This document shows positions 27,229 through 45,258 of a DNA stretch of 64,000 bases, in pieces. Numbering within the stretch: position 1 is the stretch's first letter; the number at the start of each line of letters is the position of its first letter. The notes under the pieces are model-generated. The model made no database searches and was not told the origin of the DNA. It saw nothing but the letters and a program-made list of their open reading frames with translations. Origin of the DNA: Janibacter terrae NBRC 107853. GTDB taxonomy: Bacteria; Actinomycetota; Actinomycetes; Actinomycetales; Dermatophilaceae. The translations under genes were made by a program, and so were the position numbers. Where the stretch lies: positions 62,001-126,000 of the forward strand of contig NZ_BCUV01000006.1 of assembly GCF_001591405.1 (NCBI RefSeq), in the 5' to 3' direction.

Positions 27229-27269
27229 GGGACCAATGTCCCCCTTCGACAGGTCGGGACCAAGGTCCC
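27229..27269. promoter_or_regulatory. Two DosR/DevR-type boxes between doxX-like and devS-like genes
   Basis: GGGACCAATGTCCC (27229-27242) and the fully symmetric GGGACCAAGGTCCC at its ends (27256-27269) match the GGGAC-x4-G-x-CCC pattern bound by mycobacterial DosR. The first is centred about 42 bases before the start site implied by the doxX -10 at 27205-27200. Relative to the leaderless devS start at 27321 the boxes are centred at -58.5 and -85.5. No protein-binding data are available. Confidence 0.75.
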
Positions 27270-27320
27270 GGGGGTCACTCCCTGCCCCGTCGGAGCGGGT
27301 CCACGCCCTAGGATCGGCCA

Positions 27321-28994
27321 ATGAGCGGCTCCGGGGACGACGAGCACGCGACCGGGACGAGCGGCGCGGGCAGCACCTCCAAGGGCGCGGTCGACCTGCT
27401 GGAGACCGTCGCCGTCATCAGCTCCGACCTCGAGCTGTCCGAGGTGCTCGCCCACATCGTCCGCTCGGCGTGCGCGCTGGTGGGTGCTCGTTACGGAGCC
27501 CTCGGCGTGCTCGGGCAGGACGGCGACTCCCTCGCCGAGTTCGTCACCCATGGCATCACCACCGAGCAACGGTCCGACATCGGTGCTCTGCCGCACGGGC
27601 ACGGCATCCTCGGTCTGCTCATCCGGGAACCGCGACCGCAGCGGCTGAGGGACCTGTCGGAGCACCCCAGGTCCCACGGCTTCCCACCACATCATCCACC
27701 GATGCACAGCTTCCTCGGTGCGCCGGTGCGCATCCGCGACGAGGTCTTCGGCAACCTGTACCTGACGGAGAAGGAGGGGGCCGCGGAGTTCTCGCAGGAC
27801 GACGAGGCCCTGCTCACGGCGCTCGCGGCAGCCGCGGGCGTGGCCATCGACAATGCTCGGTTGTACGCCTCGAGCAAGAACCTGCGGGCGTGGTCCGAGG
27901 CCCAGGCCGCGTTGACCCAGGCCTTCCTCGCCGGCCCCGGGGAGCAGACCGCACTGGAGCAGATGGCCGTCCTCGCCCGCGAACGCACCGGCGCTGACGT
28001 GTCGTTCGTGCTGCTGTACGAGGAGGAGCACTTCCTGGTGGTGCGGGCGACGAACCGGCGTGCACCCGCCCCCTCTGACGAGACACCTCTCGCGGTGGGC
28101 AGCAGAGTGGACGCCGACGGGTGGGACGGGATCAGTGGCCCGGTGCACCGGAGCAGACGTGCGGGGCCGGGGGCGGACGCTGCGGCCCGGCGCGTGGCCG
28201 AGCTGATGGGTGCCGAGGCGGGCAGCTTCGCCGCCCTGCCGTTGGGCCCGCAGCATGACCGGCTCGGCTTCCTGGTCGTCGTGTGGACGCGGGACGACGA
28301 TCCCTCCGAGGTCGACGTCATCCAGCCCTTCGCCGATTTCGGGCAGCACGCCGGCGTGGCCCTGCTCGCCGCCCGCTCGCGGCGCGACCAGGCCCTGGTC
28401 GCGCTCCTCGAGGACCGCGACCGGATCGCCCGGGACATGCACGACCACGTGATCCAGCGACTCTTCGCCACCGGGCTCTCGCTCCAGTCCGCGGCGCGCC
28501 TGGCGGTGCACCCCACCGTGCGGGAGCGGCTCGACGACGCGGTCGACGACCTCGACGGCGCCATCAAGGACATCCGGCACACGATCTACGCGCTCCACCG
28601 CCTGCCGGTCGGGACGATCCGTGACGCGATCGGCGAGCTGATCGACGATGCGGCGCAGAGCCTCGGCTTCGAGCCCGCCCTGGTCATCGAGGGGAGGCTG
28701 ACCGGCCTGACCGACGGGCTGTCGGCCGATCTGGTCGCCGTGGTCCGTGAGGCGCTCACCAATGTCGCCAAGCACGCCCGCGCCCAGGAGGTCCGGGTGC
28801 ACGTGCAGTGCGAGGACGAGCTCAGGGTCGTGGTGACGGACGACGGCATCGGCATGGACCCAGCCAGCGCGCGCAGCGGTCTGGTCAACCTCGGGACGCG
28901 GGCCGCTGCCCGGGGGGGCAGCTTCGAGCTGGGCCAGCGGGTCCCGACCGGCACCGCCTTGTCGTGGACGGTCCCGGCGGACCGCGACGACTGA
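27321..28994 (+). CDS. devS: DevS/DosT-type GAF-domain sensor histidine kinase
   Basis: 557 residues: first GAF domain about 25-180, second GAF about 195-355, HisKA_3 dimerisation helix with [18 protein letters not shown] (phospho-acceptor His374), and a C-terminal HATPase with [10 protein letters not shown] and DDGIGM. In the first [11 protein letters not shown] (121-128) followed by [20 protein letters not shown] closely resembles the haem-bearing GAF of mycobacterial DevS/DosT, with His125 the likely proximal ligand, so it may sense O2, NO or CO. Haem binding is inference. ATG with TAGGAT six bases upstream indicates a leaderless mRNA. Partner: the regulator gene 65 bases downstream. Confidence 0.92.
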
Positions 28995-29037
28995 GGACCT
29001 TGGGCCCGGGCGATCGGGGGTCCGACGGGGCGATACT
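28994..29037 (+). promoter_or_regulatory. DosR-type box and -10 before the devR-like gene
   Basis: AGGACCTTGGGCCC (28994-29007, one mismatch from the GGGACC-N3-G-N-CCC pattern) is followed 24 bases later by GATACT (29032-29037). The implied start near 29044 places the box at about -43. The devR-like gene may therefore have its own autoregulated promoter within the devS-devR gap. Confidence 0.6.
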
Positions 29038-29059
29038 TCTCGAGAGAGCGAAGGAGTCG

Positions 29060-43782: not shown

Positions 43783-43821
43783 GCCCACCCGGTCCGGACA
43801 CACCCAGCACGAGAGGCACCC

Positions 43822-45198
43822 ATGTCGAGCTACCGCACGGAGAACCCTGCCACCGGTGAGGTCGAGCGCACCTTCGACGAGGTGGACCGGGACGGGGCGA
43901 TCGCCGCCGTCGACCTCGCGCACGCCGCCTACGAGGGGTGGCGCGAGCGGTCGCCCGAGGAGCGCGCCGAGGTCCTGCGCCGCACCGCCGACCTGTACGA
44001 CGAGCGCGCCGACGAGCTGGCCCGCACGATCGCCACCGAGATGGGCAAGCCGCTCAAGGAGGCGAAGGGAGAGGTCGCCCTCGCCGGGTCCATCTACCGC
44101 TGGTACGCCGACCACGGACCCGAGCTGCTGCGCGACGAGGAGCTCGACGCCCAGGGCGCCCTGCGCAGCATCGTCCGCAAGGAGCCGGTCGGCGTGCTCC
44201 TCGGCGTGATGCCGTGGAACTACCCCTACTACCAGGTGGCGCGGTTCGCGGCGCCCAACCTCGTGCTCGGCAACACGATCCTGCTCAAGCACGCCGGGAT
44301 CTGCGCCGCGTCGGCGACCCTCATGGAGGAGGTCCTCCGCCAGGCCGGGCTGCCCGAGGGCGGCTACGTCAACCTCTTCGCCTCGAGCCGGCTCATCCCG
44401 GACGTCATCGCCGACCCGCGTGTGCAGGGGGTCTCGCTCACCGGGAGCGAGGCCGCCGGTGCCTCCGTGGCCGAGGCCGCGGGCAAGCACCTCACCAAGT
44501 CGGTCCTGGAGCTCGGCGGCTCCGACGCGATGATCGTGCTCGACGCCGCCGACGTCGACGCCATGGCGAAGACGGCCGCGCGGGCCCGGCTGTCCAACGC
44601 CGGTCAGGCGTGCAACTCGCCGAAGCGGATGTTCGTCGCGGACGAGATCCACGACGAGTTCGTCGAGGCGCTGACCCGCCACGTCGAGCAGACACCCGTG
44701 GGCGACCCGCTGGACCCGGCCACGCGGATGGGCCCGATGTCCTCCAGCCAGGCCCGGGACGACCTCGACGAGCAGGTCCAGGACGCCGTCTCCAAGGGGG
44801 CGACGCTCCACACCGGCGGCCGGCCCCTCGACCGCGAGGGTGCCTTCTACGCCCCGACGGTCCTCACCGGCATCACTCCCGACATGCGCGCGTGGGACGA
44901 GGAGCTCTTCGGCCCGGTCGCGATGGTCTACCGGATGACCGACGTCGACGCCGCCCTCGAGCAGGCCAACGCCTCCGCCTTCGGCCTGTCCGGGTCGGTG
45001 TGGAGCGACGACCCGGACAGGGCCGCGGAGGTCGCCGCCCGGCTCGACGTCGGCATGGCCTACGTCAACGAGCACGGCACGACCATGCCGGGGCTGCCCT
45101 TCGGCGGGGTCAAGCGCTCCGGCTACGGCCGAGAGCTCGCCTCGGACGGCATGAACGAGTTCGTCAACCGCAAGCTGGTGCGCGTGGCCGCGAGGTAG
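43822..45198 (+). CDS. NAD(P)-dependent succinic-semialdehyde-type dehydrogenase
   Basis: 458 residues. ALDH fold: GVMPWNYPYYQVARF (cofactor site), SLTGSEAAGASV (Rossmann loop), catalytic Glu in LELGGSDAMIVL and nucleophile Cys in NAGQACNSPKR; C-terminal GYGRELASDGMNEFVN. The wording is closest to succinate-semialdehyde dehydrogenases of the GabD type, but other aliphatic semialdehydes are possible. GAGAGG gives the ribosome site before ATG 43822. It follows the MMPL gene by 39 bases with no obvious shared function. Confidence 0.92.
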   Translation: MSSYRTENPATGEVERTFDEVDRDGAIAAVDLAHAAYEGWRERSPEERAEVLRRTADLYDERADELARTIATEMGKPLKEAKGEVALAGSIYRWYADHGPELLRDEELDAQGALRSIVRKEPVGVLLGVMPWNYPYYQVARFAAPNLVLGNTILLKHAGICAASATLMEEVLRQAGLPEGGYVNLFASSRLIPDVIADPRVQGVSLTGSEAAGASVAEAAGKHLTKSVLELGGSDAMIVLDAADVDAMAKTAARARLSNAGQACNSPKRMFVADEIHDEFVEALTRHVEQTPVGDPLDPATRMGPMSSSQARDDLDEQVQDAVSKGATLHTGGRPLDREGAFYAPTVLTGITPDMRAWDEELFGPVAMVYRMTDVDAALEQANASAFGLSGSVWSDDPDRAAEVAARLDVGMAYVNEHGTTMPGLPFGGVKRSGYGRELASDGMNEFVNRKLVRVAAR

Positions 45199-45215
45199 GC
45201 CCCGGGCGGTGACGA

Positions 45216-45258
45216 GGGACCAAGGGCCCTACAGCCGCCGCGCCAGCGGGCGAAGACT
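45216..45258 (+). promoter_or_regulatory. DosR-type box and -10 before the ABC exporter
   Basis: GGGACCAAGGGCCC (45216-45229) is followed 23 bases later by AAGACT (45253-45258), the same hexamer and spacing as before the orphan sensor gene at 29.9 kb. The implied start near 45265 gives a 35-base leader before the ATP-binding subunit gene. Confidence 0.65.

Follow-up and report, generated by a model that had tools for sequence, protein, structure and literature searches.

Mycobacterial devR is autoregulated within the DosR/DevR regulon. The consensus box of this regulon is GGGACTTNNGNCCCT (PMC6448022), and its proximal DosR box overlaps the -35 region (PMC3029386; PMC5360333). A DevR-type regulon outside mycobacteria is not new: OsdR of S. 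coelicolor has been described, with USP (universal stress protein), PPOX, dehydrogenase and nitrate-reductase genes as targets (PMC5069765). Here we analyze 64,000 nucleotides of Janibacter terrae NBRC 107853 (contig NZ_BCUV01000006.1, positions 62,001 to 126,000; this whole stretch is called the window), in which a devS-like and a devR-like gene lie among GGGACC-type boxes. We predict from the sequence, with a probability of roughly 88%, that a DevS/DevR (DosS/DosR-type) two-component system is encoded in the window, together with some of the genes under its direct control. This core reading holds because a gap of 23 bases between box and -10 hexamer recurs as a peak in relatives of the locus, where start codons often follow the -10 after 6-7 bases. 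The two genes of the system are as follows:

27321 to 28994, plus strand: devS-like sensor kinase with GAF, HisKA_3 and HATPase_c domains
29060 to 29710, plus strand: devR-like response regulator with a receiver and a LuxR-type helix-turn-helix

The best solved match of the regulator is M. tuberculosis DevR (E 5.5e-64, residues 5-214), followed by VraR (2.4e-37). Residues aligned with D54, K104, K179, K182, N183 and T198 are kept, and D56, aligned with D54, is the candidate phospho-acceptor. We take the numbering and roles of these residues, and of T205, to be those of M. tuberculosis DosR, with K179, K182 and N183 presumably the DNA-contact positions. The protein is thus a NarL-family regulator that has both the receiver Asp and the DNA-contact residues of the DevR type. 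The first GAF domain of DevS is nearest to the DosT/DevS GAF chains (best E 5.4e-52). Its His125 and Tyr147, 22 residues apart, are found at the positions of His149 and Tyr171, which we take to be the haem His and the distal Tyr of the known DevS-type sensor. The partner kinase therefore appears to carry a DevS-type haem GAF domain, and haem binding is predicted.

The original prediction for this locus was built on five box/-10 pairs, all of which we could read directly from the window, with a gap of 23 bases at four of them and 24 at devR:

27242-27229, minus strand: doxX box, GGGACATTGGTCCC, gap 23 to its -10
27205-27200, minus strand: doxX -10, CAGGAT
27256-27269, no strand assigned: second box, fully palindromic, between doxX and devS
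28994-29007, plus strand: devR box, AGGACCTTGGGCCC, its first base being the last base of devS
29032-29037, plus strand: devR -10, GATACT, gap 24
29713-29726, plus strand: box of an orphan promoter at 29.7 kb, scoring highest by matrix among the DevR promoters that turned up in the scanned stretches
29750-29755, plus strand: orphan-promoter -10, CATGGT, gap 23
29905-29918, plus strand: box of a membrane pseudo-sensor gene, gap 23
29942-29947, plus strand: pseudo-sensor gene -10, AAGACT, with an ATG 6 bases on (leaderless)
45216-45229, plus strand: box of an ATP-binding cassette (ABC) exporter, gap 23
45253-45258, plus strand: exporter operon -10, AAGACT

The palindromic box was missing from the earlier list, and forms a pair with the doxX box at 27-base spacing. 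Overall, GGGAC-type 14-base boxes stand 5' of several genes, devR among them, and the proximal box covers the -35 region at a fixed distance from the predicted start.

The same geometry recurs in relatives. A DevR search of 119 genomes of the family, probably the Intrasporangiaceae, gave 69 that match at 1e-45; these fall into 35 of the 53 genera. For 60 of the 74 listed DevR matches we took a stretch of at most 20 kb each (1.07 Mb in all); the remaining 14 were the window and 13 matches, most of them weaker. Around devR in these 60 loci there are 92 exact boxes, compared to 9 in the reversed control. Behind the 92 boxes, a NANNNT hexamer stands at gap 23 in 49 cases and at gap 24 in 13, with 0-5 at each other gap from 5 to 59. 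Removing look-alikes, in which the 56 bases behind the box are similar, reduced the relaxed sites from 192 to 182; gap 23 accounts for 75 of these and gap 24 for 28, and elsewhere in the range shown the mean is 3.4 and the maximum 9. Since none of these relatives entered into the original prediction, the peak bears out its claim that the spacing is hard to explain by chance, and it also supports the proposal that a DevR-type regulon with a single activation geometry and a membership of its own exists outside mycobacteria. Gap 23 is prominent beyond the family as well. In a comparison of 80 named loci from a genome scan, it stands out in the Nocardioidaceae (9 exact and 8 one-mismatch sites) and among the one-mismatch sites of the Micromonosporaceae (11), and counts in the remaining groups are low. 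The nearest relative, G034, belongs to another genus and is 83% identical in devR, 67% in devS, 80% in doxX and 64% in the protein encoded at 29954. Its doxX is also preceded by a box pair at 27-base spacing, with a gap-23 hexamer CAACAT.

To describe the promoters, we built a logo from 109 sites of the relatives (at most one mismatch, A or T at positions 7-8, gap 23 or 24). It reads GGGACC-WW-N-G-N-CCC, then T (87%) and G (69%), with a [C/G]ANNNT -10 behind which come mostly two Gs. Gene starts were assigned by script for 107 of the 109 sites, and 44 of the 107 promoters have just 6-7 bases between the -10 and the start codon. Because this is the distance expected where transcription starts at the start codon itself, it suggests that such DevR-type promoters often give leaderless transcripts. 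A gap of 23 plus 6 bases puts the center of the box at -42.5, as at the 29954 gene; this is arithmetic on predicted starts, and it agrees with the original estimate of about 42-43 bases before the start.

The -10 hexamers of these promoters mostly lack the usual first T. It is present in 7 of the 109 DevR-class sites and in 0 of the 44 at leaderless distance, compared to 49 of 86 NANNNT hexamers standing 6-7 bases before other genes of the same loci (Fisher 2.5e-15 and 1.7e-12, probabilities that are too small because the rows are related sequences). In the loci of other families, the first base is T in 5 of 61 DevR-class sites, compared to 53 of 103 comparison hexamers. As a separate observation, the 86 comparison hexamers come from 407 other genes (loci L063-L122) and 49 are TANNNT, so leaderless genes look common in the family. 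TANNNT is found in 73% of M. tuberculosis primary starts (PMC3898074), and by eye none of the seven DosR-dependent -10 boxes in PMC5360333 starts with TA, so the weak -10 has in part been seen already; the authors of the latter paper remark on a GCCAG motif in three of these. Our literature search, which was not exhaustive, found no general statement of a weak -10 in DevR promoters.

To score further sites, we applied a matrix made from the relatives' sites to just the window and the stretches fetched, so that the resulting list of members is a lower bound. The predicted targets, including those outside the window on contigs C7 and C8, are as follows:

26550 to 27149, minus strand: doxX-like membrane protein gene, predicted DevR target (DoxX Pfam E 0.0021, below its cut-off)
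29954 to 30550, plus strand: membrane pseudo-sensor of 198 amino acids; its dimerisation segment is DevS-like, and it has neither an ATPase domain nor a phospho-acceptor His
45300 to 46022, plus strand: ABC exporter ATPase
46019 to 47572, plus strand: presumed ABC exporter permease, hydrophobic, with no Pfam family above cut-off
C7:729644, minus strand: lipoprotein-like gene, 110 amino acids, leaderless (matrix score 30.7)
C8:48886, minus strand: small membrane-protein operon (matrix score 26.3)
C7:733921, minus strand: beta-CASP hydrolase, weaker candidate (matrix score 19.3)
C7:729631, plus strand: MgtE/CBS transporter with, by eye, a SulP-like frame behind it, weaker candidate (matrix score 17.5)

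The two weaker candidates score no better than a site at 14524-14537 of the window (19.5), an isolated box with a gap-24 -10 that lies inside an open frame and was taken as chance. In their favor, CBS (4) and Beta-Casp (3) domains are present among 106 targets of the relatives (the 107 genes minus one of more than 1000 amino acids). The most frequent domains in that set are Usp (43 of 106), Pyridox_ox_2 (18) and PNPOx_N (5), which may overlap and which fit the themes of DevR and OsdR. In this genome, by comparison, neither the 5 USP domains (in 4 places) nor the 2 PPOX genes have a DevR promoter scoring at least 10 in their 1.5-kb flanks. Between C7:729000 and C7:734000, a near-palindromic box carries divergent promoters for the lipoprotein-like gene and the MgtE/CBS transporter, and a further box lies between the beta-CASP hydrolase and a dehydrogenase-like frame; this region is possibly a second DevR cluster. 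The ABC exporter was not retained as a genus-wide DevR target, as relatives of the permease are merely 31-38% identical and occur in 5 of 15 other genomes of the genus.

The product of the 29954 gene had been called an orphan sensor, a label that does not fit. Domain searches of this protein gave no HATPase match, and its C-terminal segment aligns weakly with the dimerisation segment of DevS (E 0.008 in a single comparison). At the position of the DevS His it has T, and its G034 counterpart has N. Lacking both an ATPase domain and a phospho-acceptor His, it is unlikely to be a working kinase, and to make it a partner of DevS is speculation. We also considered the frame at 29774-29953 as an N-terminal extension of this gene, and dropped it because of its codon-position GC (0.63/0.72/0.80, compared to 0.70/0.56/0.88) and because position 29954 itself is at leaderless distance from the -10.

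At 29.7 kb, the promoter is intact and has the highest matrix score found (32.1), and no gene follows it, as the original description of a gene-free stretch had it. That description was incomplete, however: in G034 the slot after devR holds a box with GATGGT at gap 23, and 6 bases further on a leaderless PPOX-family gene begins with its ATG, so the box is a PPOX promoter there and may now drive an RNA here. The PPOX gene is followed in G034 by a zinc-dehydrogenase-like frame (by eye), and next comes the pseudo-sensor gene, which has a box of its own. Among the 60 relatives, a box/-10 pair is listed within 400 bases 3' of devR in 22, and a PPOX relative of the G034 gene lies behind devR in 9, of which 4 have the pair. 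A PPOX pseudogene behind the orphan promoter was rejected, as 29690-29990 holds no detectable remnant (best tblastn E 0.5); nor is there a clear remnant of the dehydrogenase in this interval, where the best tblastn match (E 0.014) spans 22 residues on the opposite strand. The feature that does follow the promoter is:

29762 to 29872, plus strand: structured stretch, candidate small RNA; it opens at the predicted transcription start and closes with a 13-bp hairpin

The sequence 29762-29900 folds far better than its shuffles (z -5.7), and 29761-29870 matches a genome of the same genus, G101, at 77%. In a search of 296 loci, the loop CAGTCAGGGGAC occurs only in G101 and G125 besides the window's own copies. 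Counterparts of the element lie at 8296-8416 of L295 and 8104-8224 of L296, in two other species of the genus. By eye, the G101 element sits between two regulator-like genes on the strand opposite to both, and the setting in G125 looks alike. No DevR match was found in G101. Inspected by eye, short matches in L288-L290 and L292-L294 were put down to chance. Across the three sequences, covariation gives no net support (term +3.22, unfavorable; both partners differ in 3 of the 35 pairs), and many pairs are broken in one of the three. A search of Rfam over 26500-30500 returned nothing above cut-off and one match far below it. Either a structured element has been joined to a DevR promoter to give a small RNA, or a terminator-like element stands there by chance.

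Several observations weigh against the regulon reading, and the rival explanations draw on them. The geometry held at all five sites of the proposed regulon, but devS lies outside it: its likely -10, TAGGAT at 27309-27314, is 39 bases past the nearest box. This hexamer stands 6 bases before the devS ATG, so that devS is possibly leaderless from a TANNNT promoter; TAGGAT is an ordinary hexamer of this type, in contrast to those of the DevR targets. The DevR residue aligned with T205 is V. Only 8 of the 60 relatives have a box/-10 pair within 400 bases 5' of devR itself, and the exact boxes of the Micromonosporaceae favor gap 34 (8) over gap 23 (5). Of 16 genomes of the genus only 2 have DevR, and the second copy is just 68% identical. 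Because the gene is patchy in its genus yet 83% identical in G034, either gain by transfer or repeated loss could account for its history. Counts of the box alone are no better. In the 3.58-Mb genome, the exact box and the core GGACCWWNGNCC hardly exceed their reversed controls (34 versus 29 and 48 versus 42), so we dropped such counts as proof of a regulon, and the one-mismatch box is without enrichment in the window (28 versus 29.9). These counts, and the shortness of xAnnnT, are what could make the 23-base spacing a chance pattern of weak hexamers in GC-rich DNA. Moreover, 4 of the 6 gap-23 and 1 of the 4 gap-24 relaxed sites in the genome are those hand-picked by the original prediction; only two gap-23 sites are new, and the genome-only gap count is therefore not independent evidence. 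That count has NANNNT at gaps 23 and 24 in these 6 and 4 cases out of 51 distinct relaxed sites, compared to 21 for the other 23 gaps between 15 and 39 (Poisson 0.0005 for gap 23 at a mean of 0.96; the counted mean is slightly lower, 0.91). Even so, we regard chance as scarcely credible. The exact box is found 6 times in the window where 0.93 are expected, a number reached in 0 of 100 shuffles, and with N22-24 and NANNNT behind it 3 times where 0.03 are expected, the frequency of NANNNT in the window being just 0.0166. Across the genome, the longer forms GGGACNWWNGNCCC (12 versus 4 in the reversed control), GGGNCNWWNGNCCCT (8 versus 3) and GGACCWWNNNCCCTG (4 versus 1) exceed their controls, and NANNNT stands at gap 21-26 behind 4 of the 34 exact boxes. 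Since all four are at gap 23 (three in the window, one at C7:729631-729644), the fixed spacing tells signal from noise. Among the exact boxes of this genome, the combination of box and spacing is thus enriched though the box alone is not. Above all, the same gap peaks in independent relatives and goes together with start codons at leaderless distance.

A different rival accepts the boxes and assigns them to another NarL/LuxR-type regulator, with the targets of DevR elsewhere. The genome does have three further DevR matches, at 37-39% identity, and the DevR-like PolR of Microlunatus has a reported site, GTTCACnnnnnGTTCaC, that is unlike the GGGACC box around devR in related families (PMC6754071). 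Nevertheless, boxes are dense around devR itself in the relatives (the 92 versus 9 above), they resemble the mycobacterial consensus (PMC6448022), and the regulator encoded here keeps K179, K182 and N183, presumably its contacts with DNA. We consider this assignment improbable. The regulon reading leaves room for a third rival that concerns the 29.7-kb site alone, namely that its promoter is a mere remnant of a PPOX promoter that yields no useful transcript, its hairpins being ordinary terminators. The leaderless PPOX gene behind the same type of promoter in G034, the lack of a clear PPOX or dehydrogenase remnant and the unfavorable covariation term all agree with this, whereas the promoter scores highest of those found here, and its predicted start is where the structured stretch begins, a stretch that another species has in similar form. 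We give the remnant an even chance, and put a predicted small RNA from 29762-29872 behind a DevR promoter at about one chance in three.

Taking the regulon reading as a whole, we propose that the haem-GAF DevS would sense low oxygen, nitric oxide or redox state and would phosphorylate DevR at D56, the residue matching D54. DevR would then bind GGGACC-WW-N-G-N-CCC boxes, often followed by TG and centered about 42-43 bases before the start. Bound in place of a -35 element, it could recruit RNA polymerase to a weak [C/G/A]ANNNT -10. Because this -10 is mostly without the usual first T, the promoters should be near-silent without DevR. Candidate targets are doxX, devR itself, the 29.7-kb stretch, the membrane pseudo-sensor and the ABC exporter.

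We tentatively suggest, as a possibility that we think doubtful, that actinobacterial DevR promoters form a distinct, portable class. Their GGGACCWWNGNCCCTG box would be centered near -42.5, their [C/G]ANNNTG -10 would run against the consensus and so make them depend strictly on the activator, and their starts would often be leaderless. One such promoter of this species would have lost its enzyme gene and would drive a structured RNA some 110 bases long; a second would drive a histidine-less DevS-like membrane protein that could pair with DevS, possibly as a feedback brake. The rule drawn from the sites, namely a box, a gap of 23 or 24 bases, [C/G]ANNNT and in many cases a start codon after another 6-7 bases, can list DevR regulons in actinobacterial genomes without expression data, and the avoided first T of the -10 suggests how DevR promoters stay off without DevR. 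The PPOX gene in G034, set against the structured stretch here, hints that regulon members change and promoters stay. The promoter rule, the changed gene set and the RNA candidate are the parts worth testing.

Among the known systems, the DosR/DevR regulon of M. tuberculosis and M. smegmatis is like this one in its DevS with a haem-type GAF domain, its DevR and its 14-base box followed by T, as well as in the proximal box over the -35 region and the closely packed box pairs, for which doxX offers a parallel (PMC3029386, PMC6448022, PMC5360333). The present case differs from mycobacteria in that the targets near devR in the family's relatives are mainly USP and PPOX genes, and that here a DevR promoter stands before an ABC exporter and before a membrane pseudo-sensor, with none found at the USP and PPOX genes. 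OsdK/OsdR of S. coelicolor likewise has a DevR orthologue outside mycobacteria. Its consensus is AGGGCCGATCGGCCCT, with positions given relative to gene starts, several of them near -50, and the portion of that paper available to us contains no fixed box-to--10 spacing (PMC5069765). The DosR-dependent small RNA DrrS (MTS1338) of M. tuberculosis shares with the orphan promoter a box over the -35 region, a weak non-TANNNT -10 and a short RNA (PMC5360333), although no sequence relation to the structured stretch is seen, whose RNA is only predicted. Compared with these systems, the newer details of the Janibacter locus are the rare first T of the -10, the USP and PPOX genes at which no DevR promoter was found, the supposed orphan sensor that lacks the phospho-acceptor His and an ATPase domain, and a promoter that drives a PPOX gene in G034 but faces a structured stretch here.

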